DNA of 64,000 bases from the NCBI RefSeq assembly GCF_023195695.1, contig NZ_JALPQG010000002.1, forward strand, positions 186,001 to 250,000, in the 5' to 3' direction. Shown in pieces: positions 4,146-27,993 of this stretch; position 1 is the first letter of the stretch, and every line of letters begins with the position of its first letter. Source of the DNA: Aliiroseovarius sp. S1339. GTDB taxonomy: Bacteria > Pseudomonadota > Alphaproteobacteria > Rhodobacterales > Rhodobacteraceae. Below the pieces are notes generated by a model, which saw only the letters and a program-made list of their open reading frames with translations, made no database searches and was not told the origin of the DNA. A program made the translations under genes and the position numbers.

Positions 4146-4210
4146 TTTGTGGGGGGCTTTGAGTCGGTTCGGGGCTGGGCGGGCTTGCGAAAAGCCCCTA
4201 TTCACCCCCT

Positions 4211-5656: not shown

Positions 5657-5671
5657 CGGCGGTCCGTCCGC

Positions 5672-6550: not shown

Positions 6551-6649
6551 GCAATAACACCTGCAAATTGTTCCTTGGACCGGTCTATCCGGCCTTCATT
6601 GCGAGAACATTACCCAATGCAGCGCGTTCGCACAACTGAACGAACTGTT

Positions 6650-8044
6650 TCAATTTTTGCCAAGCGCTTCCAACAGGCTGTCCAGACGCTTCCCTTGCGG
6701 GCTAACGCGGTGCACCGGGGCGGATTTCACGGTATTGAAATATGCTTCGGGATCATAGGTCACCACGCCCAGCTTCAGATGCTCGGCGGTCAGCAGACCC
6801 ATCGACGACAACAGCGAATAGGCTGCAAGATACTGATTTGATTGCGCTGTAATTCGGCTGGCTTCGGCGTTCAAAAGCTCCTGTTCGGCATTCAGAACGT
6901 CCAATGTGGTGCGCGAGCCCAGTGTCGCCTCTTCACGTGCGCCGCGCAGGGCCACGCGGCTTGCGCGGATCTGCCGCTCAGTCGCTTCCAGCGACGCGGC
7001 TGCGATGGCAAGCTGTGCCCAGGCATTGGCAACGCCTTGATCTACCGCCAGACGCGCTTGATGCAATCCAGCACGCGCGGCTTCAGCCTTAGCAATGGCT
7101 TTGCGGTATTCAGCCGACAGTTTGCCACCCGAATAGATCGTGCCCTGAAGCGCCACGCCGACGGAGTTGGAGAAGAAATCCTGCCCCCCCGCGTCCTGCC
7201 ATTTGGTTTGCGCATTGCCGACCAGCGCCGGTTTCATCGCCGCCATCGATATCTCGGTTAACAGATCAGACGCGGCCACATTGTGCTGTGCGGCAAGAAT
7301 GTCGGGGTGACGTTGGCGCGCGATCCCCTTAGCGGCATCCAATGTCTTGGCCGTCATCGGCAGCGCAGGCGGCACTGACAACGACCCTGGCAAATCGCCG
7401 GTTGCTGCTCGGTATTCCTCGCGCGCGATGGCAAGATCGCCGCGGGCTGACGCCTCGCTTGCGCGGGCTGCTGCCAGACGGGCTTGTGCCAAGGCCACAT
7501 CCGTTTGGGTCACTTCGCCAACTTCAAACCGATCATTTGCGGCCCGCAGTTCTTGCGTCAGCACCCGAACCGAGTTGGACTGCAATTGCGCGTTCTCGAC
7601 CGCGGATCGGACATCGACATAAGCTTTCACGGCGCGCAGCAGGATTTGCTGCTCGACACTGGTCAGGCTGTCGCGCGTCGCCAGTACAACTTCTTTCTGG
7701 GCCGCAACCGCAGCCTTGCCCCGTCCGAAATTGAAGATCAGGAACTCGGCAGTCAGCTGGGCCGACGTGCCCCAGGCAGAATTGCCAGAGATGCTGGCAT
7801 TCGGATCCGTCCAGCCGTGTTGGATGGCATAGCTTAGGGTCGGGCGCAAAGCAGCTTGTGCGATTGCAACATCTTCGTCCGCCGCCCGCAGAAGCGCTTG
7901 GTTTTGCTCAAGCAAGCCGCTGTGTTTATACGCCGACGCCATCGCGTCAGAAAGCGTTTCAGCCAGCGCCAACGGTGCCGAAGCGAAAGACACCCCGATG
8001 GCCAGCACAGCGCCGATATAATTCTTTCTAAAACGTCTGACCAT
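6650..8044 (-). CDS. tolC: TolC-family outer membrane efflux protein
   Basis: Trimeric outer-membrane channel that joins with inner-membrane pumps in type I secretion or drug efflux. The protein (464 residues) starts with a signal peptide ending near ALAETLSDAM, followed by the duplicated coiled-coil and beta pattern of the OEP family; QARLAAARASEASARGDLA and the late TTLDVLNAEQELLNAE are typical helices. It is 60 bp downstream of the Pcm-type methyltransferase gene on the same strand, and the pairing suggests an operon. No pump or membrane-fusion partner is adjacent; the ABC gene at the window start is not close enough to be assigned as partner. Confidence 0.9.
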   Translation of the reverse strand: MVRRFRKNYIGAVLAIGVSFASAPLALAETLSDAMASAYKHSGLLEQNQALLRAADEDVAIAQAALRPTLSYAIQHGWTDPNASISGNSAWGTSAQLTAEFLIFNFGRGKAAVAAQKEVVLATRDSLTSVEQQILLRAVKAYVDVRSAVENAQLQSNSVRVLTQELRAANDRFEVGEVTQTDVALAQARLAAARASEASARGDLAIAREEYRAATGDLPGSLSVPPALPMTAKTLDAAKGIARQRHPDILAAQHNVAASDLLTEISMAAMKPALVGNAQTKWQDAGGQDFFSNSVGVALQGTIYSGGKLSAEYRKAIAKAEAARAGLHQARLAVDQGVANAWAQLAIAAASLEATERQIRASRVALRGAREEATLGSRTTLDVLNAEQELLNAEASRITAQSNQYLAAYSLLSSMGLLTAEHLKLGVVTYDPEAYFNTVKSAPVHRVSPQGKRLDSLLEALGKN

Positions 8045-8104
8045 TTCGCCACCTCACTGAAATCACATGTGGTATGGCCCGGTACGGGCCAATTCTGCGC
8101 AGAA

Positions 8105-8758
8105 TTACAGAACGAATTCCCGGGGTTTCTGAAACCCGTCGATCAAAGGTGCACCGGCGCTGAAGCTGTGGCGCCAAACAACGTTTCCGTCGATCTTATA
8201 GCCCACCTTCACAGTGCCCAGCATGCCTTCGGCAAAGATGCAGCAAATACGGCCGCCATCTTTCAATTGATCGGTGATCGCGGGCGGCACAACCTCAACG
8301 GCGCCTTGAACCAGCACCACATCATACGGCCCGTTCTTGGCGTTTCCTTCAACCAACGGCCCCGCGATGACGGCCACGTTGTCCGCGCCATGTTCTGACA
8401 GGTTGGCTTGCGCATCCGCCGCCATAGCCTGGTCTTCTTCGACGGCAACCACAAAATCCGCAATGCGCGCAATCACAGCCGAGCTGTATCCAAGCCCACA
8501 TCCCAGATCGAGCACCATTTCGTCGCGCTGAATATCCACCGCGTCCAACATCTTGGCCAAGGTGCGCGGCTCAAGCACAACCCGGCCACCATCAAGCGCG
8601 ATATTTTCGCCCATATAAGCCGCTTCGCGTTTCGCATCAGGCACATAGTCTTCGCGCGGGACAGAGAGCAGTGCATCAATTATCGGGAACTTGGTCACAT
8701 CCGAAGGGCGGACCTGTGTGTCCACCATCATCGTGCGGCGCATGGCAAAATCGGTCAT
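8105..8758 (-). CDS. pcm: protein-L-isoaspartate O-methyltransferase family protein
   Basis: SAM-dependent methyltransferase of the PCMT family, which repairs isoaspartyl residues in aged proteins. The 217-residue protein carries motif I in VLDLGCGLGYSSAVIA and an Asn/Asp-type acidic motif after it. The N-terminus (RRTMMVDTQVRPSDV) is that of the alphaproteobacterial subgroup next to tolC. Enzymatic repair activity is assumed from the family. It is the first gene of the probable pcm-tolC unit; a hairpin directly abuts its start codon. Confidence 0.85.
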   Translation of the reverse strand: MTDFAMRRTMMVDTQVRPSDVTKFPIIDALLSVPREDYVPDAKREAAYMGENIALDGGRVVLEPRTLAKMLDAVDIQRDEMVLDLGCGLGYSSAVIARIADFVVAVEEDQAMAADAQANLSEHGADNVAVIAGPLVEGNAKNGPYDVVLVQGAVEVVPPAITDQLKDGGRICCIFAEGMLGTVKVGYKIDGNVVWRHSFSAGAPLIDGFQKPREFVL

Positions 8759-8812
8759 GTCTAGCCTATCTATTCAGAGACGTCTTGCTTCTCTTGCCAT
8801 AGATAGCCAGAC
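8759..8812 (-). promoter_or_regulatory. hairpin in the 5' leader of the pcm-like gene
   Basis: Two arms (8759-8773 and 8799-8812) are near-perfect inverted repeats with GTCT/AGAC ends and a CTATCTAT/ATAGATAG core. In the pcm transcript the stem would reach the base before the ATG, where no good ribosome-binding site is seen. It could control translation or be an operator. Confidence 0.35.
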
Positions 8813-8835
8813 GCGGCAATCCCGCACGGCAGGTT

Positions 8836-8868
8836 CGGCGGAAGGTGTCGCATCCGTCCGCCGTTTTT
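8836..8868 (+). terminator. terminator-like hairpin with no + strand gene before it
   Basis: CGGCGGA (8836-8842) pairs with TCCGCCG (8857-8863), followed by five T. It reads on the + strand, but the only gene upstream is pcm, which runs the other way. It could end a short untranslated transcript starting near 8770, or shield the tRNA gene from read-through. Confidence 0.5.
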
Positions 8869-8952
8869 CGTCCTCATAGATTTACCACCCCCCACCGTTC
8901 CGGGCTGGACAAGCCCCTGCGATTGGCGATAGAGAATCCCGAAACCACGGAT

Positions 8953-9026
8953 GGCGAGTTGGCGGAGTGGTTACGCAGCGGATTGCAAATCCGTGTACAC
9001 CGGTTCGATTCCGGTACTCGCCTCCA
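8953..9026 (+). tRNA. tRNA-Cys (GCA)
   Basis: The acceptor arms GGCGAGT and ACTCGCC pair, the anticodon loop TTGCAAA carries GCA, the T arm CCGGTTCGATTCCGG is intact, and CCA is encoded (9024-9026). It is the integration site of the following element: the 3' part from 8979 is repeated at 27943, and the gene is left complete by integration. Confidence 0.96.
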
Positions 9027-9029
9027 TTT
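8979..9029 (+). repeat. left attachment site: direct repeat in the tRNA-Cys 3' end
   Basis: 51 bp identical to 27943-27993, running from the anticodon stem through CCA and three further T. Looser similarity continues about 17 bp past both copies (TTTTCAA and CTTAGC shared). Confidence 0.95.
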
Positions 9030-9041
9030 ATTTTCAAGCAC

Positions 9042-10157
9042 TTAGCTCTCTCCTCTCTTTGCCCCATCTGGGGCGTTTACAATAGCGTTTACAGTTTTGC
9101 CCTCGCGGCGCTGTTTTTCGCGCTCCAGTAAGTCGAGGACTTCCGCGCTTTCAGCAGGCGAAACGGCAGCGTAATGCTCGATCACAGCGGCGGCGTAACG
9201 CAGCTCCCAGCCCATGTGGTTTGCGATCTGGTTGAGGCCAAGGCCTGCACGTAGCAGCCGCGTGGCCGCAGTTCCGCGCATATCTTGAAGCCTCAGCGTC
9301 GGATCACTCAGCTTGTCAGAGACGACATCCCGGTATCGTTTGATGGCTCGACTTGCAGACGTGGAGTTTAGTGGGTTGTTTCGGTCATTGGCCAACAAAG
9401 TATGCTGGTCTGCCGGTGTTTCATCGATCAATTGTCGAAGCTCTTGCGTCACCGGGACATGCGCTACACGCCCTCGTTTCTGAGTCCGCACTCGAAAGCG
9501 TTCAACACCATCGAAGCTTTCAAGGCTTCCTCGCGTCAAGCGCACAAGATCTGCAGGCCGCAGCCCTGTTTCGCAGGCGAGTGTCATCACACGCTGTACC
9601 CAAGGCGGGGCAACTTCCTTGAAAACCCGCTGGTCCGCATCGGTCCAGACGATCTCAGACCGATCTACAGTATAGATACGATGTAATCGGTCACAGTAGT
9701 GTGCTGCGATCTTCCCTTCACCCCGTGCCCAATTGAGAATGCGTACCGCAATAGTCCCTGCGTAGTCATGCTGCTTTGGAGAGTCTTTCCATTTGGCTCG
9801 CCATTCGTTCATTTCCCCCCTCGACTTCGGGTTCTCCCACATCGCCGCTGGGTCGGCCGCGAATTCCTCGGCAAATCTAAGTGCCCACATTTTATATTCG
9901 TCTTGTGTGCGCCGCCCCGGGGGCATAGCGGTACTATTCAGAAACTCATCAACCATCTGATGCGTCATGTATTGACTTGAATGGCGTGTTTTAATGGCTT
10001 CAGAAAATGCGATGAGAAATTCTGGCTCACGCGGGAACCGCTCCGTTGATGTCCAGTATTTCGGTCCACCACGCCAAGCGTAAAAATGATAGCGCGTGCC
10101 GTCTTTTGTCACCCTCTTTACACGGTGAACTCCTTTAGGGAGACTACCTCGCGGCAA
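9042..10157 (-). CDS. tyrosine site-specific integrase of the tRNA-Cys element
   Basis: 371-residue phage-type recombinase expected to integrate and excise the element at tRNA-Cys. The catalytic domain shows Arg200 in TGLRPADL, Arg294 in LQDMRGTA and the nucleophile Tyr329 in EHYAAV. The position usually held by His three residues before the second Arg is Gln291. The start is a TTG with a strong GGAGGG in front, overlapping the preceding small gene by 14 bp. The gene ends 13 bp from the att repeat, and the two GCGTTTACA arm-like repeats lie inside its last codons, encoding the doubled VNA in the tail. Confidence 0.93.
   Translation of the reverse strand: MPRGSLPKGVHRVKRVTKDGTRYHFYAWRGGPKYWTSTERFPREPEFLIAFSEAIKTRHSSQYMTHQMVDEFLNSTAMPPGRRTQDEYKMWALRFAEEFAADPAAMWENPKSRGEMNEWRAKWKDSPKQHDYAGTIAVRILNWARGEGKIAAHYCDRLHRIYTVDRSEIVWTDADQRVFKEVAPPWVQRVMTLACETGLRPADLVRLTRGSLESFDGVERFRVRTQKRGRVAHVPVTQELRQLIDETPADQHTLLANDRNNPLNSTSASRAIKRYRDVVSDKLSDPTLRLQDMRGTAATRLLRAGLGLNQIANHMGWELRYAAAVIEHYAAVSPAESAEVLDLLEREKQRREGKTVNAIVNAPDGAKRGES
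9073..9093 (+). repeat. paired GCGTTTACA repeats, candidate integrase arm sites (left)
   Basis: GCGTTTACA occurs at 9073-9081 and 9085-9093, 12 bp apart start to start. Related words lie near the right att copy (27852, 27905, inverted at 27916, 27932). Arm-type binding by the integrase is inferred from position and repetition. Confidence 0.5.
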
Positions 10158-10395
10158 TTCGCGCCCTCCTTAGCTCAACCAAGTCACAATCGCCTGACAG
10201 GCCAACTCCCACTGCGCTCAGTCCCTGTGCCAAATCAAGCTTAGCTCTAACCAATTTGGGGTCGTACCAGCCTCTTCGGCCAGGAACTGGCAGGATACCC
10301 ACGCGCCGGCAAAACTCATAAAATGCGGTTGATGGCTCTTCATATCCAAATGAAGAGGCAAGTTCTTGAGTGGAAATCAGCTGAATGCCCTCCAT
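10144..10395 (-). CDS. small DNA-binding protein before the integrase, possible excisionase
   Basis: 83 residues; the ATG at 10395 is chosen because AGGAGGGAG precedes it at the right distance. Words such as LISTQELASSFGY and a later RRGWYDPKLVRAKLD resemble MerR/excisionase-like winged helix proteins in which a short helix-turn-helix is followed by a basic wing. It overlaps the integrase start by 14 bp, so it should be translationally coupled to it, which fits a recombination directionality factor. The family was not recognised with certainty; an ordinary regulator is the alternative. Confidence 0.6.
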   Translation of the reverse strand: MEGIQLISTQELASSFGYEEPSTAFYEFCRRVGILPVPGRRGWYDPKLVRAKLDLAQGLSAVGVGLSGDCDLVELRRARIAAR

Positions 10396-10409
10396 GTTCG
10401 CACTCCCTC

Positions 10410-10631
10410 CTACGAACGAAGCAACGCGTCGACATGTTCCGGGAGAAGCAGCATCCGCTTCCCACACATGATGAAATCTCCATGCTCACGTGCACGCTGT
10501 TTTAGCGTTCTAACTCCGACTCTGACACCATGCTGCTCTCGAAGAGCTTCACACCAAGCCTCTACAGTCCGCCCTCTGGCTAAGACATCTGGTAGAACAT
10601 CGGATTCCAATTGCTTCTTGGTACTAGACAT
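10410..10631 (-). CDS. small helix-turn-helix-like protein
   Basis: 73-residue protein. VGVRTLKQRAREHGDFIM followed by MLLLPEHVDALL resembles the helix and wing of excisionase or AlpA-like proteins that read a short DNA site. It is the first gene of the leftward operon with the second small protein and the integrase, and diverges from the XRE repressor across 92 bp. Either this or the next gene may be the excisionase; the other may regulate. No known family was recognised beyond the general fold. Confidence 0.55.
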   Translation of the reverse strand: MSSTKKQLESDVLPDVLARGRTVEAWCEALREQHGVRVGVRTLKQRAREHGDFIMCGKRMLLLPEHVDALLRS

Positions 10632-10723
10632 TTGTTACACCCTTTTTCCACGCCACGTTGCAAGGTACTTCATTTTTGGGCATTATACCGACAGGTTAAC
10701 GCTATATACGAACATTTAACGAC
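10632..10723. promoter_or_regulatory. divergent promoter region between repressor and integrase operon
   Basis: AT-rich 92 bp separating the leftward small protein/integrase operon from the rightward repressor. TTAACG occurs at 10696-10701 and 10716-10721, two helical turns apart, the second abutting the repressor ATG. This would suit cooperative binding by the XRE protein to control both directions; the promoters themselves are not clear. Confidence 0.4.
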
Positions 10724-11167
10724 ATGATACGAAAAAATGATCATGAATCAACTCTACGCGCGGAAATTGGCGAACGACTTGCCGAATTCCGCCAGCATTT
10801 GGGGCTGTCGCAGAAGGAGTTAGCCGCCAGTATCGGTGTGGTCTGGCGCTCCTACCAAAACTATGAATTGGGTATCCGAGAGGCTTCAGCACAAACGATG
10901 GCCAACTTGGCAAACGTACACACCTTAAACTGTGATTGGTTAGTTTCGGGCCGCGGACACATGCTTTACTCTCCGCCGGAAGAAACGGCTCGGCAGTCTT
11001 TGGCGCTCTTGATTGACCAGATTGATGAAACAGGCGTCGATGTCCCCCGCAACAAAATACCAGACTTACTGGCACTGATAATGGCAAGCGCCTTCAAGCA
11101 GGATCAGATGACCAAAGAGAATGTTCTTGAACTATTAAAACTAGTGGAGGTTAACGATGCAAAGTGA
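10724..11167 (+). CDS. XRE-family transcriptional repressor
   Basis: 147 residues with an N-terminal helix-turn-helix of the Cro/C1 type (RLAEFRQHLGLSQKELAASI, then WRSYQNYELG) and the common phage-repressor continuation CDWLVSGRGHM near residue 75. There is no C-terminal LexA-like peptidase, so SOS cleavage is not expected. No clear ribosome-binding site precedes the ATG, so it may be leaderless. It sits between the integrase operon and the cargo and overlaps the next gene by 11 bp. Likely job: keep the element's excision genes silent, possibly also control the methyltransferase operon. Confidence 0.85.
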   Translation: MIRKNDHESTLRAEIGERLAEFRQHLGLSQKELAASIGVVWRSYQNYELGIREASAQTMANLANVHTLNCDWLVSGRGHMLYSPPEETARQSLALLIDQIDETGVDVPRNKIPDLLALIMASAFKQDQMTKENVLELLKLVEVNDAK

Positions 11168-11399
11168 AGCAAACAAAACTGCCAACGAACTACGTGAATT
11201 TCGTCGCCACGACAAAAAACGGGTAAAGCAATTCTTGGTTGCTGGCTGCTTACTAGGTCTTTCTGGATTTGGGGCAAGCTTTCTCTTCGAACTCACCCCA
11301 TGGCTGGAAACTTCAACGCTTCTAGTACCGGTATTTGCGATCGGCGCGATGGCGATGAGCATAGACAAAAAGCGTTTTGATTTCGCACGTAAAATTTGA
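11157..11399 (+). CDS. small two-helix membrane protein
   Basis: 80 residues: a charged N-terminus, then two hydrophobic stretches (VAGCLLGLSGFGASFLFEL and a second beginning at STLLVPVFAIGAM) separated by a short turn, and a basic tail. The ATG overlaps the repressor gene, indicating coupling. No family was recognised. It could be an accessory of the repressor or a small toxin-like or exclusion protein; nothing in the sequence decides this. Confidence 0.6.
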   Translation: MQSEANKTANELREFRRHDKKRVKQFLVAGCLLGLSGFGASFLFELTPWLETSTLLVPVFAIGAMAMSIDKKRFDFARKI

Positions 11400-11537
11400 G
11401 ACTTCAGTTGCGATATACCAAGCAAAATTTTTGGCGAATGGCGCGGTTTGTCACGCTGCTAGGCCGTAGTCATATTCGTGCCATTCCAGCCTTCAACGAG
11501 CGACTGCCGCAGCAATCGTTTCAGGTGAGTACCGCTG

Positions 11538-12734
11538 ATGTTTGACACGAACAACAGCATCGGTCGGGTGGTTAGCCTGTTCTCTGGCTGCGGAGGATTA
11601 GACTATGGCTTCGCACATGCTGGTTTCAATGTGCAAGCTGCATTCGACAATGATGAACACGCGGTCTCATGCTATAATCTCAATCACTTCGGCAAGGCAA
11701 AACAACAGGTTATAGACGAGTCTTGGAGCCTTGAGGCACCTGTTGACGTAATAGTGGCTGGCCCGCCCTGCCAAGGCTTCTCCACCGGGGGTGGCTACAC
11801 GGAAAACGATCCCAGGAATTCTTTGCTATTGGCCACTTGCAGGCTGGTAGTGAAAAGCAAGGCCAGACTGGCAGTCATCGAAAATGTTGCTGCTTTGACT
11901 AATAAGCGAAATCAAGAATACCTAACGCAAGCACAAGAGATACTCGTCAAAGGAGGATATTGGTGCTCGGTACAAGTCTACTCAGCCGCCGACTTTGGCG
12001 TGGCACAAAGAAGAAAACGCACCGTAATACTGGCGCGCTTCGGAAATGCTCCTTTCCGAGGTCCGATTCCTCATAAGACTGAAATGCCAACTGTAGCGAA
12101 GGCGTTTCGTGGCATTTTCAGTTCTCTTCAGGCCCACAACCCGAAATTTCCGAAACCAAATAGTAAACACGCAGTTATCGCGAAGCGCATCGGTGCAGGT
12201 CAAAAACTTTGCAACGTCCGTGGTGGTGACGCAAGTATCCCAACTTGGGATATTCCTGAGTGGTTTGGGCAAACTTCAAGTTTTGAGAAACAAATTCTCA
12301 CAACAATTCGAGCACTCAGAAGACGAAATAGGAAGAGAGATTTCGGCGATGCGGATCCTGTTTCGCTATCTGAAATCAAAATGGAGATACCTCAAGTTTC
12401 ACAGGACCAGTTGACCTCTTTGATTCAGCGAGGCTTCATGCGTTCGTCAGATGACCTGTATGATCTGAAGGACACCTTTAATGGCAAGTATCGGAGGTTG
12501 GATCCTGAAGATGTTTCGCCAACCGTGGACACTAGATTTGGAGATGTTCAGCTCTTTCTTCACCCAACAGAAAATCGAGGCCTTACCGTTAGAGAAGCTG
12601 CTAGGCTGCAAGGGTTTCCTGATGAATTTGTTTTTCCTGAGCAAGAGAAAGAAGCATACAGGTTAATCGGAAATGCCGTTCCCCCACCGATGTCGATACA
12701 AATCGCTGAAGCCTGTAGGGAGTTGTTAGCGTGA
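11538..12734 (+). CDS. DNA (cytosine-5) methyltransferase
   Basis: 398-residue m5C methyltransferase. Motif I is SLFSGCGGLDYGFAHAGF (from about residue 11), motif IV GPPCQGFSTGG with the catalytic Cys near 76, motif VI ENV near 114, motif VIII QRRKRT near 156 and motif X GNAVPPPMSIQIA at the end; the segment between VIII and IX (about 200-300) is the target-recognition region. All catalytic elements are intact. It is the first gene of a four-gene operon; the next start codon (GTG) overlaps its stop. No restriction endonuclease follows, so it probably marks self DNA for an unusual effector set. The target sequence cannot be predicted. Confidence 0.95.
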   Translation: MFDTNNSIGRVVSLFSGCGGLDYGFAHAGFNVQAAFDNDEHAVSCYNLNHFGKAKQQVIDESWSLEAPVDVIVAGPPCQGFSTGGGYTENDPRNSLLLATCRLVVKSKARLAVIENVAALTNKRNQEYLTQAQEILVKGGYWCSVQVYSAADFGVAQRRKRTVILARFGNAPFRGPIPHKTEMPTVAKAFRGIFSSLQAHNPKFPKPNSKHAVIAKRIGAGQKLCNVRGGDASIPTWDIPEWFGQTSSFEKQILTTIRALRRRNRKRDFGDADPVSLSEIKMEIPQVSQDQLTSLIQRGFMRSSDDLYDLKDTFNGKYRRLDPEDVSPTVDTRFGDVQLFLHPTENRGLTVREAARLQGFPDEFVFPEQEKEAYRLIGNAVPPPMSIQIAEACRELLA

Positions 12735-13681
12735 CCAAATTGACTCAGATCCCCCCCTCCTGGGACTTTCCGGTTGAAGATAGCCCCTTGCCTCCAGAAT
12801 CCGTGTCCATGATCGACTTTCTGAGCAAGAAAGTTCTCAATGACTACGAACCTTCACAATTTCACCCGTTTCGCCAGCGCCTCCTAGACTGGTTGAACAA
12901 TGTTGATTCCGAAGAGGATCAACAGCACTTGCTTGCCCTTCTCCTGAAGGTTTTCTTTGTCGGCCGTCGTGAATTCGAAGCTCTCTACCGCACAGTGTTT
13001 CACGGGAATATTTTCCGCTGGATGCTCGAAGTGGAAGATGTGGATGTATTCTCGAACGACTTGGAGAAAAGCATCGTGAACAGGGTCAACAAGGCTTGGA
13101 TTTGCCCCATATCGGATAGCTTGCGTATCAACTCCTTCTTAAAGGTAAACGGCCTCAAAAGCTTGGATAAACGCCCAGACTGGCGATCCCTCCGGCAGTT
13201 TGGAGATGTCAAAAAGATACAGACTTACGTTGAGGACAAAAAAATCCGAGATCTCGTACTTTTGGAAGACTTTGTCGGCTCCGGAACACAGGCAAAGGGT
13301 GTAGTTAAGTTTGCTGCCCATGCGCTTCCGGAAACCCGGATACTGTTGTGCCCCCTTATCGTCTGCCCAAAAGGTGATGAAGCTCTGATCGACACGGTTA
13401 GCAAACTAGACAACGTGACATACGACCCTGCGCTTTTGCTGCCATCGTCAGCGTTTCACGCCTATGAGAATATCAAGGCCAATCAAGCGACTAAAGCTGA
13501 AAAATTTCTTTGCGGTCTCAAAGACAAGGTAGGAATGCCGTCAGAGAAACAAATGTTCGGGTTCAAACAAACAGGTGCTAAGGTGGTAATGTATTCCAAC
13601 TGCCCCAACAACTCGCTGCCAATTTTCCATTTTGAATCGGACACTTGGACGCCGCTGTTCCCAAGAGTGAATAGACAATAA
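12731..13681 (+). CDS. phosphoribosyltransferase-like protein of a defence-type operon
   Basis: 316 residues, GTG start overlapping the methyltransferase stop (GTGA). LVLLEDFVGSGTQ (about residues 175-188) is a type I phosphoribosyltransferase PRPP-binding loop: two acidic residues after a hydrophobic strand, then a G-S-G-T turn. After a short strand/helix repeat comes MFGFKQTGAKVVMYSNC and an FPR ending. From memory this matches a PRTase-like family (PRTase-CE) predicted in prokaryotic conflict systems; that assignment was not checked. The N-terminal 150 residues are helical without a known domain. A nucleotide-scavenging enzyme is unlikely given the neighbours. It may act on a ribose-phosphate ligand or be the effector. 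Confidence 0.75.
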   Translation: MTKLTQIPPSWDFPVEDSPLPPESVSMIDFLSKKVLNDYEPSQFHPFRQRLLDWLNNVDSEEDQQHLLALLLKVFFVGRREFEALYRTVFHGNIFRWMLEVEDVDVFSNDLEKSIVNRVNKAWICPISDSLRINSFLKVNGLKSLDKRPDWRSLRQFGDVKKIQTYVEDKKIRDLVLLEDFVGSGTQAKGVVKFAAHALPETRILLCPLIVCPKGDEALIDTVSKLDNVTYDPALLLPSSAFHAYENIKANQATKAEKFLCGLKDKVGMPSEKQMFGFKQTGAKVVMYSNCPNNSLPIFHFESDTWTPLFPRVNRQ

Positions 13682-15675
13682 TGAAAGCAAATCCATTCTT
13701 TGAACTCTATGTGGGTGATCGGATCAGCTCAAATGAATTCGTCACCATCTTTAGCCCTATGCTTGTGACGCACACAGAACCCCTGTTCATGCCCGGAAAC
13801 ATCGTTGTTACCGGGATTCAAGGGTGCGGGAAAAGCATGTTGCTCAAGCTGCTAAAACCGCAAACAAGGATCGAATACGAACAGGCCAACAGGGAATTCC
13901 CTGTATCTGAATCGATGCGGAAGTTTGTATGCGGTTCCGTCAACTTAGCTCATAGCAGCGTTATCGATTTCGGCTATCGTGACGCCATCGACAAAGACGT
14001 TCAAAAAACGGAACTCCTATTCGCTGATTTCCTAAACTACCTTATTTGCGACAGCCTCTTAGAGAGCATCGAAGTATATCTTGGTGCTTCAAAGGCCATC
14101 AGGGAAGAAGTTGGATTGAACTTCGACCAAGATAGGATGGATCAGCTTGCATCTCAAATCGCCTGTTTATCTGTCTGGGAAGGCTGGATAGCTGATTGCG
14201 CTTCAATCAATGAATTGAGGCTTCAGCTACAGCGTCGCGCCAAACTATATCGCCGGTTCGTTCACGGGAAAGATTTGGAGCTTTCCAGTGAAATGTTCGA
14301 CACGGCGACTCCGATCGGCGCCCCACAAATTGCGCTGGCCGAGCTCCTCCATTCAAGTGGAGCCCTGGACACCGACACAAATGTCTTTGTCGATATCGAT
14401 CAATACGAAGAACTGGGAAATATTTCTTCACGCGATACACCCGGCAAAACCGTGGATTATCGTGCTGTAATCAACAAAGCACTTGCGTCACGAAATCCAG
14501 AACTATCCTATCGGATTGGCACAAGAGGCTATTCTTGGCGAAGTCACGGTCGCATTCACGGAACTAGCGGCAATCTGGAGTTCATGAGGGACTACAAATA
14601 CATCGATCTCGATCAAATCTTGAAGAAAGATGAAGATGACAGCGCGCGAGCAAACAATGTCTTCGACGACTTTGCAAAAGACGTGTTTGCACGACGACTC
14701 CGCTATGCACAGTTCACTTTCTCAGACGATCAAGACGAGGATCTATTAGAGCAAGTATACGGCTCAAACCTCACACCTATGCAAAAAGTTAACCAAGAGA
14801 TGGGTCTTCGAGAACCTGAAAAATATGTCAAAATCGATTCTAATTGGTCGAAGGAGACTAAAGAAGCGTTGATCCGCCTAGCCAAGAAAGACTTGTATTC
14901 CGCAAAACTTGGTGAGTTTTGGATTAGGCAGAAAGGCGATCGGGAAAATTTGGATGTTCGCGACGAACAACTACCTTGGATGCGGAACTCTAATCGTTGG
15001 TGGAGAAAAGAGCGAGCAAATGTACTAGCAGTGTTAGTTGCATCCCAGAGTAGACAAAAATCAATATGGGGTGGTGCGAAGGAAATTCTGGAACTTTCGG
15101 GTGGAAGTATCTTGGTTTTCCTCGGCATCAACCAGTTCATTTGGAGTACCTGGCTACAAAGAAATGACAGACCCGAGATTTCACGCTCTTCTCTACCCAC
15201 GATTAGCGTAGGGGTCCAATCTACAGCGATTCATAGAGCGAGCAATGCTTGGTACGATATGATCTTTCAACAATCGGGTCGCAGTGCTGAAAGAGCGAGA
15301 TTCGTAAAGAATGTGGGCGATCTCCTTCGCCACAAAATTTTGTCGGACGAAAAACTAAGTTATCCAGGGGCAAATGGTTTTTCCGTTATGAACGAAGAAC
15401 TTGACAACCTTCCTGCAGTAAGAGGCTTCCTTGAGCAACTAGCAGATTATGCCAACATGCTTATGCTTCGACATACAACAAAGAATTCAGGTGCTGGGCA
15501 GCGAACGAAGTTCTACTTTCACCCCATATTCTGCCCGACTTTGGGACTTCCTTACGTCCGAACCAAGGAACCATACTACGCGCGTATTCGCGAAGTTGCT
15601 GACTGGATTTACAAAGCAGGTTATGATGTTCCGCTCGCTCAAAACCAGCAAGCGCAGCAAGAAGAGTTATTTTAA
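13681..15675 (+). CDS. P-loop ATPase, ORC/CDC6-like (defence-type operon)
   Basis: 664 residues. Walker A is TGIQGCGKSM (about 44-53), preceded by NPFFELYVGDR and an FSP element; the Walker B-like strand is NVFVDIDQYEEL near 235-246. The arginine-containing RIGTRGYSW near 280 may be a sensor. The C-terminal 300 residues are helical with a late YFHPIFCPTLGLPY motif that looks like a winged-helix region. The overall pattern resembles ORC/CDC6-like AAA+ proteins predicted in conflict systems (recalled, not checked). The start overlaps the previous stop by one base (TAATG). It would be the energy-using, possibly DNA-loading part of the system. Confidence 0.75.
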   Translation: MKANPFFELYVGDRISSNEFVTIFSPMLVTHTEPLFMPGNIVVTGIQGCGKSMLLKLLKPQTRIEYEQANREFPVSESMRKFVCGSVNLAHSSVIDFGYRDAIDKDVQKTELLFADFLNYLICDSLLESIEVYLGASKAIREEVGLNFDQDRMDQLASQIACLSVWEGWIADCASINELRLQLQRRAKLYRRFVHGKDLELSSEMFDTATPIGAPQIALAELLHSSGALDTDTNVFVDIDQYEELGNISSRDTPGKTVDYRAVINKALASRNPELSYRIGTRGYSWRSHGRIHGTSGNLEFMRDYKYIDLDQILKKDEDDSARANNVFDDFAKDVFARRLRYAQFTFSDDQDEDLLEQVYGSNLTPMQKVNQEMGLREPEKYVKIDSNWSKETKEALIRLAKKDLYSAKLGEFWIRQKGDRENLDVRDEQLPWMRNSNRWWRKERANVLAVLVASQSRQKSIWGGAKEILELSGGSILVFLGINQFIWSTWLQRNDRPEISRSSLPTISVGVQSTAIHRASNAWYDMIFQQSGRSAERARFVKNVGDLLRHKILSDEKLSYPGANGFSVMNEELDNLPAVRGFLEQLADYANMLMLRHTTKNSGAGQRTKFYFHPIFCPTLGLPYVRTKEPYYARIREVADWIYKAGYDVPLAQNQQAQQEELF

Positions 15676-15680
15676 CACAT

Positions 15681-16718
15681 ATGCAGAGCTTTAAATTTCG
15701 CCCTTGGGGCCGACCTTCCTGGTTGCGAGAAAAATATGACGCGGGCAAATGGAGCTTCATCGCCAGTCACGGCTTTGAAAAGCGTAGCGCTAAATCTGTG
15801 GCTGGTTCTGCGACCGAAAAAGACGAAGTTTTTTTCATTCGAATTGACGACCCTTTGCTAGGCCAAGCCCAGGAACAAAGTGAGCGTGAACAGGCTTACA
15901 GCGCCAATTTTGACTTTGTGAAAAACAATTGTTCCGCGCAGATCAATCAAGTTCGTGAACCGTTGAAGGCGTCTCTCGATACCATCAGGGCCGTTTGCGA
16001 AAGAGCTGGAGCGGTGTCTGGCAACGTCGTTCTGGACATTACTTCTTTGCCGAAACGCTGGTTCTTCCCGATGGTAAGGTACTTGGTTCAGAATCCAGAT
16101 GTGACCAATCTGCAAGTCATCTACACCAAAGGTGATTTTCACGCTGAAGCTCTTTCGGAGAACCCGGAAACTCTTCGAGTTCTCCCTACATTTATGTCAG
16201 AAGACGACCGCGACGATCATGATTTTGCTTTCGTCGGAGTTGGCTTTCACACTCATAGTATGATGCAACTTTTTGGAGATGACAAAGCCATGTCGCTTCA
16301 ATTGCTTTTTCCATTCCCTCCGGGCCCGCCAGGAATCCATCGAAACTGGAAGTTCGTTCAGGAGGTGGAAATGAAGGTGCAAAAAGATGACAGCTTAGTC
16401 GAAGGATCGGAACCGATAAATTATTTGCACTTGGATTCCATTGATGTGTCGCAAACGTTTGATGCTATCAAGATCGTAACCGAAGGCGGAGACAAAACCT
16501 CAGTTATGGCGCCGTATGGCCCCAAACCGTTTTCGTTGGCTATGTGCCTATTTGCGATCGCTACGGAACGATCTGGAAAGGCAGAGGTCCCTGTCTACTA
16601 TTCGCAGCCGCAAAAGTACGCCGTCAACTACACGAATGACGTGGCGCTAAGACATGGAGCCCTGGATAGCTGGGCATATGCGGTGAAGAAGGATGGTAAA
16701 TTTGTCTACGAACTTTGA
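15681..16718 (+). CDS. two-lobed Rossmann-like protein, last gene of the defence-type operon
   Basis: 345 residues, soluble. VVLDITSLPKRWFFPMVRYL (about 115-134) reads as a strand, an acidic turn and a helix of a Rossmann-like fold; a second lobe has APYGPKPFSLAM (about 277) and PVYYSQPQKYAVNY (about 303), a pattern I associate with CARF-like or similar sensor proteins near defence genes. No nuclease motif was found. It follows the ATPase by 5 bp and is ended by a strong terminator, so it belongs to the operon. Likely a ligand sensor or effector; the assignment is tentative. Confidence 0.6.
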   Translation: MQSFKFRPWGRPSWLREKYDAGKWSFIASHGFEKRSAKSVAGSATEKDEVFFIRIDDPLLGQAQEQSEREQAYSANFDFVKNNCSAQINQVREPLKASLDTIRAVCERAGAVSGNVVLDITSLPKRWFFPMVRYLVQNPDVTNLQVIYTKGDFHAEALSENPETLRVLPTFMSEDDRDDHDFAFVGVGFHTHSMMQLFGDDKAMSLQLLFPFPPGPPGIHRNWKFVQEVEMKVQKDDSLVEGSEPINYLHLDSIDVSQTFDAIKIVTEGGDKTSVMAPYGPKPFSLAMCLFAIATERSGKAEVPVYYSQPQKYAVNYTNDVALRHGALDSWAYAVKKDGKFVYEL

Positions 16719-16740
16719 CGGCGGCCCCTCGGGGCCGCCG
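16719..16740 (+). terminator. terminator of the four-gene methyltransferase operon
   Basis: CGGCGGCCC pairs with GGGCCGCCG around a CTCG loop (up to 10 bp of stem), starting right after the TGA stop, then TTG. It marks the operon as one unit. Confidence 0.75.
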
Positions 16741-17778
16741 TTGCAAATTAGTTCAAACCGCTACTCTCCCACACAGGTAAACGTGTATGAGATGTCTGCC
16801 ATGGCATGAAGCCACAACGCCCGCGGACAAGCCTCAAAGCTGGTTTCGCGGTTTGGAGCTGATGATTTATGGGGAAATCACACTCTGGTCAACCGTTCGC
16901 AACGGAAAGTGTATTTTTAGCCTTGACAAAGCATAACGCATTATTTCGTGCGGAGCACAACACCTAGATGTTGCCCCATGACAAGCCCTCTACAACTGGT
17001 ATTATTTTTCCAAGAAAGAAGTCTCTAAAAATTTTGCTAGCTTCTTCAGATACAGCAAATGTTTGCCCGTTTCAGGAGAAAGTTGACGACCCGTTCAGTA
17101 TTGCTGGTGTGTGGAACGTCACAAACCTTTGACTCGAAGCCACGGGTTTTCTGAATCCGATCAATGAACCACGTCATGCAATTCTGGCCCAAACGGCAAG
17201 CATTTCTGACCCAGATCGAGAAGCAGCCGTTCATGCGCCGCGTAGCGAAAGCTGACTGAGAGCCCAACCTGCTCGTCATCCAAAGGTCATAGAGTGTCTG
17301 GTTTTTGGGTTCGAAGCACCGGATTGACCTCCTGTTATCGACGGAATCAGGTAACGAGAGATGGTTTTGAGAGGAACGTAATGCCTCGTCCTTCTGCCAG
17401 CAGCACACCATGTTTCACCTCCTAAAACGATCATTTTCAAGACACACCCGTGACAGTTATTGGTGAGACGCCAGATGAAAGCTGGCCAGACAATTCAATG
17501 AATCAATTTGTAAAATAAATCAGTAGCCAATCGATCTTTGAACTCGACTCGAGTAGCTGAAAATCGATGCTAAAACGACCTAATCTGCTCAGCACGTCAA
17601 TCCGATTTAGTCTAGAAGTAGGGCGTCAGCTAGCCTCATCTCATGGACAAATCGAGCAAAATGAACTAATATATTCTTGTCTGAGCACGAAAAAAATGAC
17701 GAGCAATCGCATTTTGGACGCGTTGCGTGCAGTTTTATTTTTACGACCATATTCAATGATATTTGAAGAGAGAGAGTT
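16741..17778. other. 1-kb gap between the cargo operons, with a possible decayed gene
   Basis: AT-rich stretch with no convincing gene. On the minus strand, roughly 17050-17340, one frame reads like a coding remnant broken by stops (words such as DEQVGLSVSFRYAAHERLLL and LGQKCLPFGPELHDVVH), while the frame that is open there (17046-17411) has unnatural composition. It is probably a relic of an older cargo gene. The final 300 bp should contain the promoter of the gene at 17779. Confidence 0.4.
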
Positions 17779-18168
17779 ATGTTTGAGATCGAATTCACCA
17801 ATGGCGTCACAATCTCAAGCGAGCCCTTTAGAATTGCCTGGCCTTCAGCGTTCGAAGACATCGATGATAACATTCTCCTCCACGCCTATACCATACTCGC
17901 TGTCTCGAACGAGACCGGACGAGACGTCGAGATTTTAGTTAGCTCGGAATTCACAGGGGAAGAAGTACTCGCAAGCGATGACGAGCCGGTTCAGCTCACT
18001 GTTGGTAGTACGTTGGGAAGCGAACCTGAGAACCAAAATCCCATTGAGCATTCGGGAACACTCAAAATAAAGGAGGGAAGTCATATTGTGCGATACAATG
18101 TGCACTGTGAAACCGGAGGCGAAAAGAAAATGGTTGCTACTCAAAGCTCAAGTTATTTTGGAGAGTAA
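17779..18168 (+). CDS. unknown beta-rich protein, first gene of the second cargo cassette
   Basis: 129 residues, acidic, alternating hydrophobic/polar as in a beta-sandwich; no signal peptide or membrane segment. The start follows GAGAGAGTT. TVGSTLGSEPENQNPIEHSG is a polar loop in the middle, and the end is Ser-rich (TQSSSYFGE). The next gene starts 3 bp after the stop, so the two should be made together. I do not recognise a family. By size and position it may be a chaperone, immunity or binding partner of the large protein that follows. Confidence 0.7.
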   Translation: MFEIEFTNGVTISSEPFRIAWPSAFEDIDDNILLHAYTILAVSNETGRDVEILVSSEFTGEEVLASDDEPVQLTVGSTLGSEPENQNPIEHSGTLKIKEGSHIVRYNVHCETGGEKKMVATQSSSYFGE

Positions 18169-18170
18169 CC

Positions 18171-20792
18171 ATGGTTGGAGTTTTTACAAACAACAAAGAC
18201 AAAGGGTTAAAGGTTAGCTCGCAGGATAAACTACATTCAGAACTCCTCAAGCACACAAAGCTTGGAAGTATTACCGCAAACGAAAGAGATATTGACGTCG
18301 TTTCATTTTCTCGAAGCCGCGAAGCCGAAATTGACTGGAAAAAGATAGTAAATCACGAAGAAACGCCCAGTGTTAACCACCCTTATGAGTTGGGCTACGG
18401 ACTTTCTTATGTGAAACGAGAATTCGAAAAGCGATTGAACGTTGGTCCAGTTGTGACTACGGCGGATTTGCCAAGGATCAATAAAAGCATAGCCACTCAC
18501 GATCCGCCTGCGGTTTGGTTTCAGGTGCCGGGGTATAACCGGAGATTGATTGTTAGTAGCGTGATCGGCGTGCCTCAGAACCGATTTGATAACGTTGATC
18601 ATTATGAGAACTTTTGGAGCAACGCTGAATCAGCGCAATTTTGGGGAAGTAGCGCCCAATCAAAAGCGCGAGTTGTGGAACTCGCGCCCGCGATCATACA
18701 TCGCCAGTACAGAGAACTTATTGAGCTGGAGAAAGTAGGTGGAGCGCTTTCTGCTGCCGCGGATAAACTTGTATCTTCACAGATTGACGGTTTCTTATCA
18801 CAAGGAGACATCGATGATTTAGTGTCGAGCTATGGCCGGATGCGTTCGGTTGGCCTGAACATTCAGGAGCGCTTAGAACGTCTTAGGGACAAGTCAAGTG
18901 ATTTGGGTTACATTCTGGTTCTGGAAGACGGATTAGAATACAAGTATCCTGATGGTTCCTCAGAAGTGCTCCAAAAGGGACAGTTGTACCAACCATATGA
19001 AACCGAGATTACTTGGGTTTCTCAATATACGCTCACTGAATATGTAGAAATGTTCCCCTTGCTAAGGATTCCGAGGACTATCAACGTTACTGAATACCAT
19101 CGAAAGGAAGTGACAAAGTACAGCAAAGTCATTCCTGACTTCGATCCGTGGGTGGAAGAAGAAAATAGACTGTCCAACTCAGGTTACAACGTATTTCGCT
19201 TTTCCCGTGTTGGGAGCAAATATATCTCCCAATCTGGAGAAGAACTTGAAGACATCATAGAACGATGTGAACTGGACCCGAATTTTGGAAAAATGTGCGC
19301 TGTACTTCTACCAGTATACGAGCAGAGCCTGATTGCCGGAGAGATTCTGTCAAAATATGTAGTTATTAGAGCACCTAGACGTGGCTTGGAACCAATTCAT
19401 GCACCTCGCATATACATCGAAGAGGATCTCGTCTTCTCAACAAAGTACATAGGTGCCGAAGTTGGCGAGCTTGCAAGCTCAATAAATCTGGCCCCAGGTG
19501 AAAGAAGAGAGATTCTGGTGGAGAAATCCACCAAAACAGAGCTGGAAGTTAGAAGAACCGCAACTTCTCTTTCTGATCTAAACGAAAACTCTGCCACCGA
19601 CTATGCCTCCGAATTGGAGAACGAAGCTAAGGCGTCCCGGGAGTCGACTAAGACACAAAGCTTGAGCGCGAGCGCGGGTGGGAGCTACGGTGGATTTTCG
19701 GCAAGTGCGTCTGGCTCTAGTTCATCCAGCCAAACCACCAAGGATTTCGCTCGAAATCTTTCAAAAGTTGCAAGAAAGGCGGCGAGGTCGGTTACTAAAC
19801 AAACTAGGCTAGAAGTACAGAGCTCTAGCCTAAGAAAAACAACCACTTCTTCCCGCGAAAGTACAAAGATTGAGATTGAGAATATAAATGACGGCAGGTC
19901 GCTGAACTTGCTACTTTTTCATTTGTACAATGTGTATCGTGCTCAATTGAAGCTCGAGAGATTAACCTTTACTTTCCTCTCAGGAATTGAAGTTGTCTCA
20001 GGGTCAGGAATTGTTTTGCCACAACAGTTTTCCCTAGATGAGCTTCCAGAGCTGTTGAGAAAATTCTCGCTTGATGGGCTGCCGATCCGTCCAAACAAAC
20101 CTGACTTTCCAGACGATCCTCAAGAAGCCGCGTTGGAACGGGTGCTTGACGCATTGATTGACACGTTAATGGAGTATCACGGGAGTGGCAGTGCGAGCTC
20201 AAGATCAGTCTTAATACCAGACTTCCCTCCAAGCGGTGACAATATCGACGAAAAGATTGCTAACCTAACAAAATCACTTACGAGTATGATTTACTCAGGA
20301 GCAGAAATTCCCCTCTACACTGAAACTGAAATAAACGGAAGTAAGCGACTGTCTGAGTTCCTTATTGGCTCCCCAGGCCTGTACCTTGACGCACACATTG
20401 GCGATAGAGACGCAACCGAACCGTATTCAAATGCCATGCGGGAGGCAGAAGTGCGTCGACAACACTCCGAAGTTCGTGAAATCGAAACCCGTGCGCTATA
20501 CAACGTTGCCCGCGCTTCCAGGTTGGGGCGGATTGACAGCCCGTTTGGAGTTTTCGGAGTGTTTATAGGCGACGATAAAATACGTGTCACTTTGGAGGGT
20601 GAGCCTTTGGTAGGAGTTTACCATATTATTCATGATGCCGCCAAAGTTGGTGAATTTGAGTTCAATGAAGGTGACGACGTCAGTTTTGAAGTTACAATTG
20701 ACACGCCGGGACCTTGGTTGCAGCCGTCTGGTGCCGATTTGGTGTTGGTTCGACACCTAGGCTCTGGCCACGAAGCACTGTTCCTAATTTAA
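18171..20792 (+). CDS. unknown 873-residue protein with Ser-rich toxin-like central segment
   Basis: A large soluble protein, no signal peptide. Residues about 1-320 are mixed and hydrophilic; 400-460 holds VRAP-like strands and LAPGERREILVEKSTKTE; about 494-520 is a Ser/Gly/Ala block in which small and polar residues alternate (SLSASAGGSYGG, then FSASASGSSSSS), as in membrane-inserting beta-hairpins of pore-forming toxins; a basic coiled stretch follows (RKAARSVTKQTRLEVQ), then ENINDGRSLNLLLFHLYN near 570. The C-terminal 60 residues look like a beta domain. GGAGAG precedes the ATG. No family was recognised. A pore-forming or contact-dependent effector, or a structural protein, is possible. 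Confidence 0.7.
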   Translation: MVGVFTNNKDKGLKVSSQDKLHSELLKHTKLGSITANERDIDVVSFSRSREAEIDWKKIVNHEETPSVNHPYELGYGLSYVKREFEKRLNVGPVVTTADLPRINKSIATHDPPAVWFQVPGYNRRLIVSSVIGVPQNRFDNVDHYENFWSNAESAQFWGSSAQSKARVVELAPAIIHRQYRELIELEKVGGALSAAADKLVSSQIDGFLSQGDIDDLVSSYGRMRSVGLNIQERLERLRDKSSDLGYILVLEDGLEYKYPDGSSEVLQKGQLYQPYETEITWVSQYTLTEYVEMFPLLRIPRTINVTEYHRKEVTKYSKVIPDFDPWVEEENRLSNSGYNVFRFSRVGSKYISQSGEELEDIIERCELDPNFGKMCAVLLPVYEQSLIAGEILSKYVVIRAPRRGLEPIHAPRIYIEEDLVFSTKYIGAEVGELASSINLAPGERREILVEKSTKTELEVRRTATSLSDLNENSATDYASELENEAKASRESTKTQSLSASAGGSYGGFSASASGSSSSSQTTKDFARNLSKVARKAARSVTKQTRLEVQSSSLRKTTTSSRESTKIEIENINDGRSLNLLLFHLYNVYRAQLKLERLTFTFLSGIEVVSGSGIVLPQQFSLDELPELLRKFSLDGLPIRPNKPDFPDDPQEAALERVLDALIDTLMEYHGSGSASSRSVLIPDFPPSGDNIDEKIANLTKSLTSMIYSGAEIPLYTETEINGSKRLSEFLIGSPGLYLDAHIGDRDATEPYSNAMREAEVRRQHSEVREIETRALYNVARASRLGRIDSPFGVFGVFIGDDKIRVTLEGEPLVGVYHIIHDAAKVGEFEFNEGDDVSFEVTIDTPGPWLQPSGADLVLVRHLGSGHEALFLI

Positions 20793-20794
20793 AG

Positions 20795-21691
20795 ATGGGC
20801 AAAGAGCATGTTATACCACCGATTGCCTATCCTCAGTGTAGCGTATTGGATGTGCCAACGGACGCGCCGACATTAAGTCGAGCGCCTTGGTACAAAGAAT
20901 CTAGTCATGATAGTTTTGATTTTGTTGTGCCTGGTATCGACTTTGATGATGCGGTTACGCTGTTGAAGAAAAATGGTGATGTGCTCAACGTAACAAGTGA
21001 CGTAGTGAAAAGCTCTGGGAAAGCTGGCGCGCTATACGAAGACTTAATCAAAGTATCGGTTAAACGCTTCGAAAGGACGGTCCGTGAAGTGGCCGACGAA
21101 GCAAAAGCCGCTCAAAAATACACTCCCGAGATGGGGCGAAAAATCATTGCGGCTCGCCGAACAATGATAAGCGAACTCAAAGGAGTATCTCCAGTTGGCA
21201 CTTATTTCAAATTCGAACCCAATTACCCAGAGCTAAAATCCGCCATAAAAACGGAGAGAATCGCAAAGAGGCTACAGACTCTGTCGGAACGAGGCGTTGT
21301 TTCGAGCCCCAGTGTTCGATCCCTTGTTAAGAAGGGGAGACGAAACCTTCCGGTGTCGGAAAAGTACGTACAAACGTCTCGCCGATATGCCAAATCTTTA
21401 AAGCGGCTAGGTGGTTTTGTGGAGGCCGTGCAAATCGCGCCAGAAATAGCTACTGTTTTGACTACAGACGACCAAGAAGAGTTTAAGCGGTCCCTCGCAT
21501 CACTAGCGGGCGCAGGCACTGGATTGCTCGTTTCTCGTGCCGCGCCATTCCTTTGTTTAGGTTTCGGACTTGCAACTGGTGGCTTTGGGCTGATTGCTTG
21601 CGGAGTCGCTATCAATGTCGCGGGTGGCACGATTCTGGCTGACATTGTCGAGCTGCAGACAAAGCAAATCTTAGACGCGCACACACTATAA
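20795..21691 (+). CDS. unknown protein with C-terminal glycine-rich hydrophobic hairpin
   Basis: 298 residues from the ATG 2 bp after the preceding stop; an in-frame upstream extension into that gene is possible but has no ribosome-binding site. The first 60 residues are polar, 70-225 are helical and basic (SVKRFERTVREVADEAKAA, then RTMISELKGV), and about 232-285 is a long glycine/alanine hydrophobic region (APFLCLGFGLATGGFGLIAC, then GVAINVAGGTIL), ending in a short polar tail. That layout recalls colicin-type channel domains or glycine-zipper membrane proteins. No family was recognised. It is the third gene of the cassette and a candidate membrane-active effector. Confidence 0.65.
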   Translation: MGKEHVIPPIAYPQCSVLDVPTDAPTLSRAPWYKESSHDSFDFVVPGIDFDDAVTLLKKNGDVLNVTSDVVKSSGKAGALYEDLIKVSVKRFERTVREVADEAKAAQKYTPEMGRKIIAARRTMISELKGVSPVGTYFKFEPNYPELKSAIKTERIAKRLQTLSERGVVSSPSVRSLVKKGRRNLPVSEKYVQTSRRYAKSLKRLGGFVEAVQIAPEIATVLTTDDQEEFKRSLASLAGAGTGLLVSRAAPFLCLGFGLATGGFGLIACGVAINVAGGTILADIVELQTKQILDAHTL

Positions 21692-21708
21692 CTTCCGCAA
21701 ATCACGAC

Positions 21709-21730
21709 ATTAATATACTGGCGTATTAAT
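21709..21730 (+). terminator. weak AT hairpin after the third cassette gene
   Basis: ATTAATA (21709-21715) pairs with TATTAAT (21724-21730) around 8 bases, 17 bp after the stop, followed by TTGG. Low stability makes it a doubtful terminator. The rest of 21692-22060 has no gene; it includes the 12-bp palindrome GATCATATGATC at 21821-21832 and presumably the promoter of the next gene. Confidence 0.3.
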
Positions 21731-24714: not shown

Positions 24715-24715
24715 G

Positions 24716-27942: not shown

Positions 27943-27993
27943 CGGATTGCAAATCCGTGTACACCGGTTCGATTCCGGTACTCGCCTCCATTT
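27943..27993 (+). repeat. right attachment site: copy of the tRNA-Cys 3' end
   Basis: Identical over 51 bp to 8979-9029, but without the 5' part of the tRNA, so it is not a working gene. It also serves as the boundary of the second integrase region to its right. Confidence 0.95.

Follow-up and report, generated by a model that had tools for sequence, protein, structure and literature searches.

What might a DNA methylase operon do if no nuclease accompanies it? This question is raised by a four-gene locus of Aliiroseovarius sp. S1339, located in a stretch of 64,000 nucleotides (contig NZ_JALPQG010000002.1, positions 186,001 to 250,000) that is referred to here as the window and numbered from its first letter. 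Our tentative answer, to which we give somewhat less than an even chance, is that the locus is a nuclease-free, methylation-gated signalling operon of the abortive type, directed against phages or other mobile elements. It would probably work by signalling and metabolic shutdown, not by DNA cutting. The four genes are the following.

11538..12734, + strand: gene 1, C5-cytosine DNA methyltransferase (398 aa; PF00145)
12731..13681, + strand: gene 2, PRTase-CE phosphoribosyltransferase-like protein (316 aa; PF24390), the proposed effector
13681..15675, + strand: gene 3, ORC-CDC6-like AAA+ ATPase (664 aa; PF24389), the proposed switch
15681..16718, + strand: gene 4, tandem-CARF (CARF6) protein without effector domain (345 aa; PDLC01923), the proposed sensor of a small nucleotide-type signal

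An earlier note, made from the DNA letters, had described a four-gene system at 11538-16718, and the four open reading frames (ORFs) were confirmed there, all on the + strand. The junctions were as it gave them, namely a 4-bp overlap of the gene 2 GTG start with the gene 1 TGA, a TAATG between genes 2 and 3, and a gap of 5 bp before gene 4. Pfam matches (PF00145, PF24390 and PF24389) agreed with its guesses of a methylase, a PRTase-like and an ORC/CDC6-like protein, and the protein that it called two-lobed and Rossmann-like is a tandem CARF protein, named CARF6 in PADLOC. The components are already catalogued, under the names CARF6 in PADLOC and PRTase-CE, ORC-CDC6-like and HD-CE in Pfam.

The four genes recur together elsewhere. 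Searches of 390 genomes of the order with the CARF6 profile PDLC01923 gave four matches, the window's own genome included, all with the identical four-gene order, and a scan of genome contigs with an ORC alignment confirmed 12 loci amongst 149 candidate stretches, 11 of which showed the order methylase, PRTase, ORC and CARF. With L069 and L075 being contigs of L064 and L065 (loci are designated L and genomes G throughout), the addition of the window and L063 brought the total to 14 distinct loci. The conserved gene order that the earlier note expected of a system was kept in 13 of these, window included, the exception being L070 from Afipia, which holds only an N-terminally truncated ORC and a CARF protein; because the loci were sampled by their similarity to the window proteins, this proportion is not a population frequency. 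Neither L072 nor L076 has a full-length PRTase frame, the contig of L072 ends within the methylase gene, and L068 has a late-starting CARF frame. By title, the carriers were Ruegeria, Mangrovicoccus, Roseobacter, Pseudorhodobacter, Sedimentitalea, Parasphingorhabdus, Afipia and Pseudomonas composti, together with bins labelled Planctomycetaceae, Bythopirellula and Verrucomicrobia, labels that may reflect contamination.

The lowest aligned identities to the window proteins were 32% (ORC), 24% (CARF), 28% (PRTase) and 39% (methylase). Amongst the nine loci present in all four alignments (L063, L068, L070, L072 and L076 being left out), pairwise distances of the four genes were correlated with r of 0.958-0.983, values that no more than 1 of 2000 permutations attained, and the four genes therefore diverged together. 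No relatives were confirmed on plasmids (scanned with ORC and CARF), in phages (ORC) or in viral contigs (scanned with each of ORC, CARF and PRTase and also with the ORC alignment), in pattern scans that are insensitive to distant relatives.

A wider view of the phylum suggested which part of the unit is constant. PF24389 exceeded its cut-off in 14 of 398 genomes, and ORC was adjacent to or fused with CARF6 in all ten genomes whose ORC match covered at least 300 profile positions (own genome included; two of the ten, L034 and L035, are near-identical). In G331, G223, G055 and G362 the ORC match lay around the P-loop only, and no CARF6 was found in the six proteins scanned there. One more genome, G190, found through CARF6 and PRTase with an ORC match below the cut-off, carries a PRTase, ORC and CARF6 trio. 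The enzyme beside ORC-CARF6 was PRTase-CE in the window, L032, L037, L038, L040 and L047, HD-CE in L033 and L036, and a calcineurin-like phosphoesterase in L034/L035, while L039 fuses a protein kinase, ORC and CARF in one chain. Gene 2 of L033, which by position had passed for a PRTase, is HD-CE, and a supposed HNH gene in L039 (11226-11969) gave no Pfam match and was not used. As ORC and CARF6 stay constant while the enzyme is exchanged, ORC and CARF6 would therefore form the sensor and the enzyme the effector.

Methylases accompany this core in several forms. A C5 methylase lies inside the operon in the window and L033 and near L036 and L039, an N6-type methylase follows CARF in L032, and none was recognised by eye in L034, L035, L037, L038, L040 and L047. 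The HD-type CARF6 profile matched five of 369 genomes, namely G366 once more and those of L078 (HD-ORC-CARF, its contig beginning a short way upstream), L079 (a CARF gene close to where a contig ends), L080 and L081. In the last two, an N6/N4 methylase (Pfam 9.2e-11 and 1.5e-11) precedes a kinase-ORC protein and then CARF6, with kinase and ORC assigned by Pfam in L081 and a weak ORC match only in L080; this is a three-gene variant in which the coupling uses a different methylase family. The presence of different methylase families (C5, N6 and N6/N4) on the ORC-CARF6 core therefore favors a role of methylation as such, i.e., self-marking. The earlier description of a methyltransferase-led system was right in that the four-gene unit is real, but ORC+CARF6 appears to be its core and the methylase one of several recurrent partners.

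Judging from its sequence, gene 1 is a complete C5 methylase of the type II kind. It matches PF00145 (E 1.6e-58) and PADLOC MTase_II (4.9e-70), its PPCQGFST, ENV, QxRxR and GNAVPP blocks are invariant in 11 of 11 aligned methylases, and a profile of 11 homologues matches M.HaeIII (1dct) at 2.2e-56. Such an enzyme is what would be expected of ordinary restriction-modification, with the nuclease encoded elsewhere or hidden and the other genes accessory, and Vsr-type mismatch endonuclease genes do lie beside the HD-type sister loci L036 and L078. The earlier claim of a missing nuclease was nevertheless upheld within the operon, where family searches of genes 1-4 recognised no nuclease domain. Nor did fold prediction for genes 3 and 4 reveal one amongst the folds that VIA lists, and a hidden nuclease there was set aside; for gene 2 the argument is its family assignment, its profile having found no match amongst PDB sequences up to E=1. 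Around the 14 loci, 191 flanking ORFs were compared for common families, not scanned for nuclease domains, which leaves some room for restriction-modification, but no flanking family beyond a regulator and mobilization genes was present in at least three loci, and the methylase co-diverges with genes 2-4. In concert, the family searches, folds and flank comparison favor the absence of a cognate restriction endonuclease, and we regard ordinary restriction-modification as highly improbable.

Gene 2 matches PF24390 over residues 53-312 (E 9.7e-36, 124.4 bits against a cut-off of 27) and the PADLOC profile PRTase_III-A at 5.7e-29. Its residues E179, D180, F181, G183, G185 and Q187 are invariant in ten of ten aligned sequences, and this EDFxGxGxQ motif is PRPP-loop-like (PRPP, phosphoribosyl pyrophosphate). 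The name PRTase_III-A presumably refers to type III-A retrons. One retron study is consistent with that reading and treats type III retrons as typically having a PRTase for their effector (PMC12548924). PF24390 was above its cut-off in 18 of the 398 genomes of the phylum. In six of these it adjoins ORC-CARF6, in seven it adjoins a retron III-A reverse transcriptase (all seven picked neighbours were matched by scan), two show a PRTase-NADAR layout (L048 by scan, L049 alike by look only), and three (L050, L051 and L059) are unassigned to these layouts. L048 exceeds both curated DS32 cut-offs and is thus a DS-32-like PRTase-NADAR pair. This pair lies directly upstream of an HmaB-like DNA-adenine methylase, which places PRTase-CE beside a DNA methylase again, and L049 looks alike.

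Literature searches by family name returned nothing on PRTase-CE and nothing related on CARF6. Elsewhere, a pair of DprA and a PRTase protects against T7 and lambda, and that report suggests the PRTase as a suicide effector (PMC9122126). The DS prefix denotes systems validated against phages in E. coli, according to PMC13092281; DS-32 is absent from its main text, and we infer the link from the NCBIfam name. This family context (retron III-A and the DS-32-like pair) and the mobile setting of the operon point to a putative anti-phage role.

An alternative would give the PRTase a different task, the making or modification of a nucleotide-like messenger from PRPP; CARF6 would then be the receptor, and the ATPase, with a methylase-guided DNA check, would block replication as in BREX (bacteriophage exclusion). 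We consider this unlikely. In the seven genomes in which PRTase-CE lies beside the retron reverse transcriptase, its type is regarded as the effector in PMC12548924, and the HD protein, metallophosphatase or kinase that replaces the PRTase on the ORC-CARF6 core would need different chemistry. The likeness of gene 3 to BrxC is weak, as described next.

Gene 3 matches PF24389 (E 2.8e-37, 129.1 bits against a cut-off of 27), and its Walker A and B motifs are invariant in 13 of 13 aligned sequences. A Foldseek search with its predicted model gave nothing below 0.001, the best match being the ORC2 structure 1w5t at 0.011, and re-alignment by VIA showed a weak resemblance to BrxC, which makes gene 3 the sole gene of the operon likened to BREX. 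Gene 4 had no Pfam match up to E=1 and matched PADLOC CARF6 (PDLC01923) at 2.9e-132. Its predicted model is a tandem CARF fold in the VIA re-alignment, without an attached effector domain, and the alignment places a conserved lysine in each CARF lobe (K125 and K282); ligand binding by gene 4 is putative. For both genes, VIA re-aligned the Foldseek candidates and is not an independent search; it was used in place of the Foldseek E-value ranking of the CARF model, which listed a KCC transporter and universal-stress-protein chains first.

The usual sources of CARF and related signals were also looked for in the host genome. For Csm1-type Cas10 there was one partial match of 22 bits against a cut-off of 170 (the Cmr2 model was not run), and the SMODS nucleotidyltransferase PF18144 had no matches (other nucleotidyltransferase families were not searched). 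Cyclic-ended RNA has been proposed as a CARF ligand in other systems (PMC11090510 and PMC4012209). For CARF6, such RNA or a product of the PRTase would be candidates. At L037, L040 and L047, and by eye at L038, the ORC-CARF6-PRTase genes stand with a HAD/SIS-like protein and NADAR, and L040 also has a ribokinase-like gene; these neighbours look like a small sugar-nucleotide pathway and may be a source of a messenger. CARF6 could instead be an off-switch, similar to a ring nuclease, that keeps the PRTase or ATPase in check by destroying a signal, a reading that we hold to be quite improbable.

The mechanism that we propose for the signalling operon would begin with the C5 methylase, whose active-site blocks are observed and which would modify a sequence in the host genome and thereby mark it as self. 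The ORC-CDC6-like ATPase would serve as the switch, assembling on DNA, checking for unmodified foreign DNA or for replication and undergoing an ATP-driven change of state; its family and Walker motifs are observed, and DNA sensing is suggested by analogy with BrxC. The threshold would be set by the tandem-CARF protein, which would bind a nucleotide-type ligand that infection produces or releases; as it lacks the nuclease domain of Can1, it would relay its state to the ATPase or PRTase through protein contact. Here the CARF6 family, the modelled tandem fold and the lysines are observed, and both ligand binding and contact are conjectural. The released PRTase, known by its family and motif, would be the effector, presumably consuming PRPP or dismantling or modifying nucleotides, which would stop both phage and cell growth (abortive infection), along the lines suggested in print for the DprA-PRTase pair. 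A bolder version, for which we see only a minor chance, holds that incoming DNA, by lacking the self-mark, sets off a soluble-messenger pathway which the tandem CARF protein reads, with the messenger being a new chemistry from the operon PRTase and signalling replacing restriction.

Further features of the region around the operon are listed here.

10724..11167, + strand: HTH_3 (XRE) regulator (PF01381, 2e-8), probable controller
11157..11399, + strand: small hydrophobic protein by eye (80 aa), between the regulator and the methylase
16718..16741, + strand: hairpin rich in guanine and cytosine (GC) that closes the operon, from RNA folding, without a T-run
8979..9029, + strand: left 51-bp attachment repeat, 3' part of tRNA-Cys 8953-9026
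27943..27993, + strand: right 51-bp attachment repeat
9042..10157, - strand: tyrosine integrase of the island (PF00589, 8.1e-14)

An island of about 19 kb (8979-27993) carries the operon as cargo and is bounded by direct repeats of 51 bp that correspond to the 3' end of tRNA-Cys. With its integrase, the regulator, TrbL and NikA/MobC genes and a relaxase-like gene that scores under its cut-off (18.6 bits against 24.6), the island is apparently integrative and mobilizable, in agreement with the mobile cargo, low GC content (0.46-0.49 against 0.56-0.61 at 1-9000) and neighbouring phage-type repressor (the HTH_3 regulator) of the earlier note. The terminator of that note was confirmed in part: a strong GC hairpin (-29.1 kcal/mol, z -4.5) lies just 3' of the stop, but it lacks a T-run, and the terminator scan did not list it.

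Amongst the flanks of the 14 loci, the XRE regulator was common to four (window, L063, L067 and L068), with homologues 0.3-0.6 kb upstream of the operon in the latter three, and two mobilization genes were each common to three loci. A small ORF also lies 3' of the regulator in L063, L067 and L068, similarly placed to the 80-aa protein, and no sequence similarity amongst these small ORFs was found at E 1e-3. Genes that by eye are integrases or recombinases, TrbL-like or of two-component type are shared by pairs of loci, and L077 has a resolvase-like neighbour at 11216-11782, also by eye; the flanks of L068, L070, L072 and L073 are short.

These neighbours lend some weight to an addiction or epigenetic-control module, in which the methylase and CARF/ORC regulate expression or the PRTase kills post-segregationally, phage protection being a by-product. 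Integrase or mobilization genes stand at the same four loci that carry the regulator, and methylases act as antidotes in known restriction-modification behaviour. The PRTase-CE relatives, by contrast, sit in dedicated anti-phage systems, and at least one locus, L074, keeps the operon with no mobility gene seen by eye. We think such a module distinctly unlikely.

The left flank of the island is present in four of four congeners, which had no match to the window CARF6. An empty integration site was not demonstrated, as the right flank (29813-30768) has a strong match in three of the four, either on a different contig or at a distance above 1 Mb, which may reflect a second insertion or a rearrangement. 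A second tyrosine integrase (28354-29358) lies just outside the right repeat, next to msrB/msrA by eye. G235 carries the tRNA 3' end in two additional copies, about 54 and 69 kb from its tRNA-Cys, and G604 in one, about 5 kb away; the tRNA-Cys site therefore looks like a hot spot. Within the island, a second cargo block (17779-22465) of four ORFs (129, 873, 325 and 143 aa, the 873-aa protein with a Ser-rich middle) had no Pfam match below E 0.01 and is possibly another defence or surface system. At 8900-30000, Rfam identified tRNA only and no retron-like RNA.

If our signalling reading is right, it would link modification-based self recognition, as in restriction-modification and BREX, with CARF-type signalling, as in type III CRISPR, which are usually separate. 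The missing-self-mark messenger, if true, would be a further use of DNA methylation in immunity. The locus would be a small and widely distributed system of four genes for testing the ligand of a CARF protein where no Csm1-type Cas10 or SMODS was found, and the function of PRTase-CE proteins, which are present in retrons too. An ORC+CARF6 core with swappable enzymes additionally predicts a larger family of systems.

Known systems share parts of this arrangement. The closest entry by name is the CARF6 clade of PADLOC-DB, as gene 4 matches its profile and sister CARF6 proteins adjoin the same ORC family; the profile names a protein, however, and not a system, and its classification presumably stems from Makarova et al. 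2020. Genes 2 and 3 exceed the curated cut-offs of their families within the Pfam set PRTase-CE, ORC-CDC6-like and HD-CE (PF24390, PF24389 and PF24391), which we take to originate from the conflict-system survey of Burroughs and Aravind, but those entries do not name the cytosine methylase and tandem CARF partner. Type III-A retrons have a PRTase of the same Pfam family, whereas no reverse transcriptase profile was matched amongst the six window proteins scanned. DS-32 shares the PRTase-CE family, but the window PRTase reached 21.3 bits against the DS32_1 cut-off of 250, no NADAR was found amongst the same six proteins, and ORC, CARF and methylase are extra to the PRTase-NADAR pair.

BREX type I offers a precedent for an ORC-like ATPase that works with a methylase. 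In PMC12839542, BrxC is an ORC/Cdc6-type scaffold and BrxX complexes bind unmethylated sites. The window methylase is of the C5 type, whereas that of BREX is the N6 methylase PglX, and the other window genes were not PglZ, BrxA, BrxB or BrxL by the profiles run. Type III CRISPR CARF effectors (Can1, Can2, Card1 and Csm6) differ from the window CARF, which has no attached nuclease domain, and the host has no Csm1-type Cas10 above cut-off, as stated above with its scope; cyclic oligonucleotide-based antiphage signalling systems (CBASS) differ in the same manner through the lack of a PF18144 match. Type II restriction-modification shares a DNA methylase of the site-specific type, but no endonuclease was found by family in the four genes. 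A methylase-coupled four-gene system was not amongst the names met in PADLOC, Pfam and NCBIfam outputs, and the titles and abstract starts amongst the literature matches listed did not describe it, a prior description in older CARF or conflict-system surveys being possible. Altogether, the protein families are known, and the methylase-coupled four-gene system is a variant of a computationally foreseen kind.

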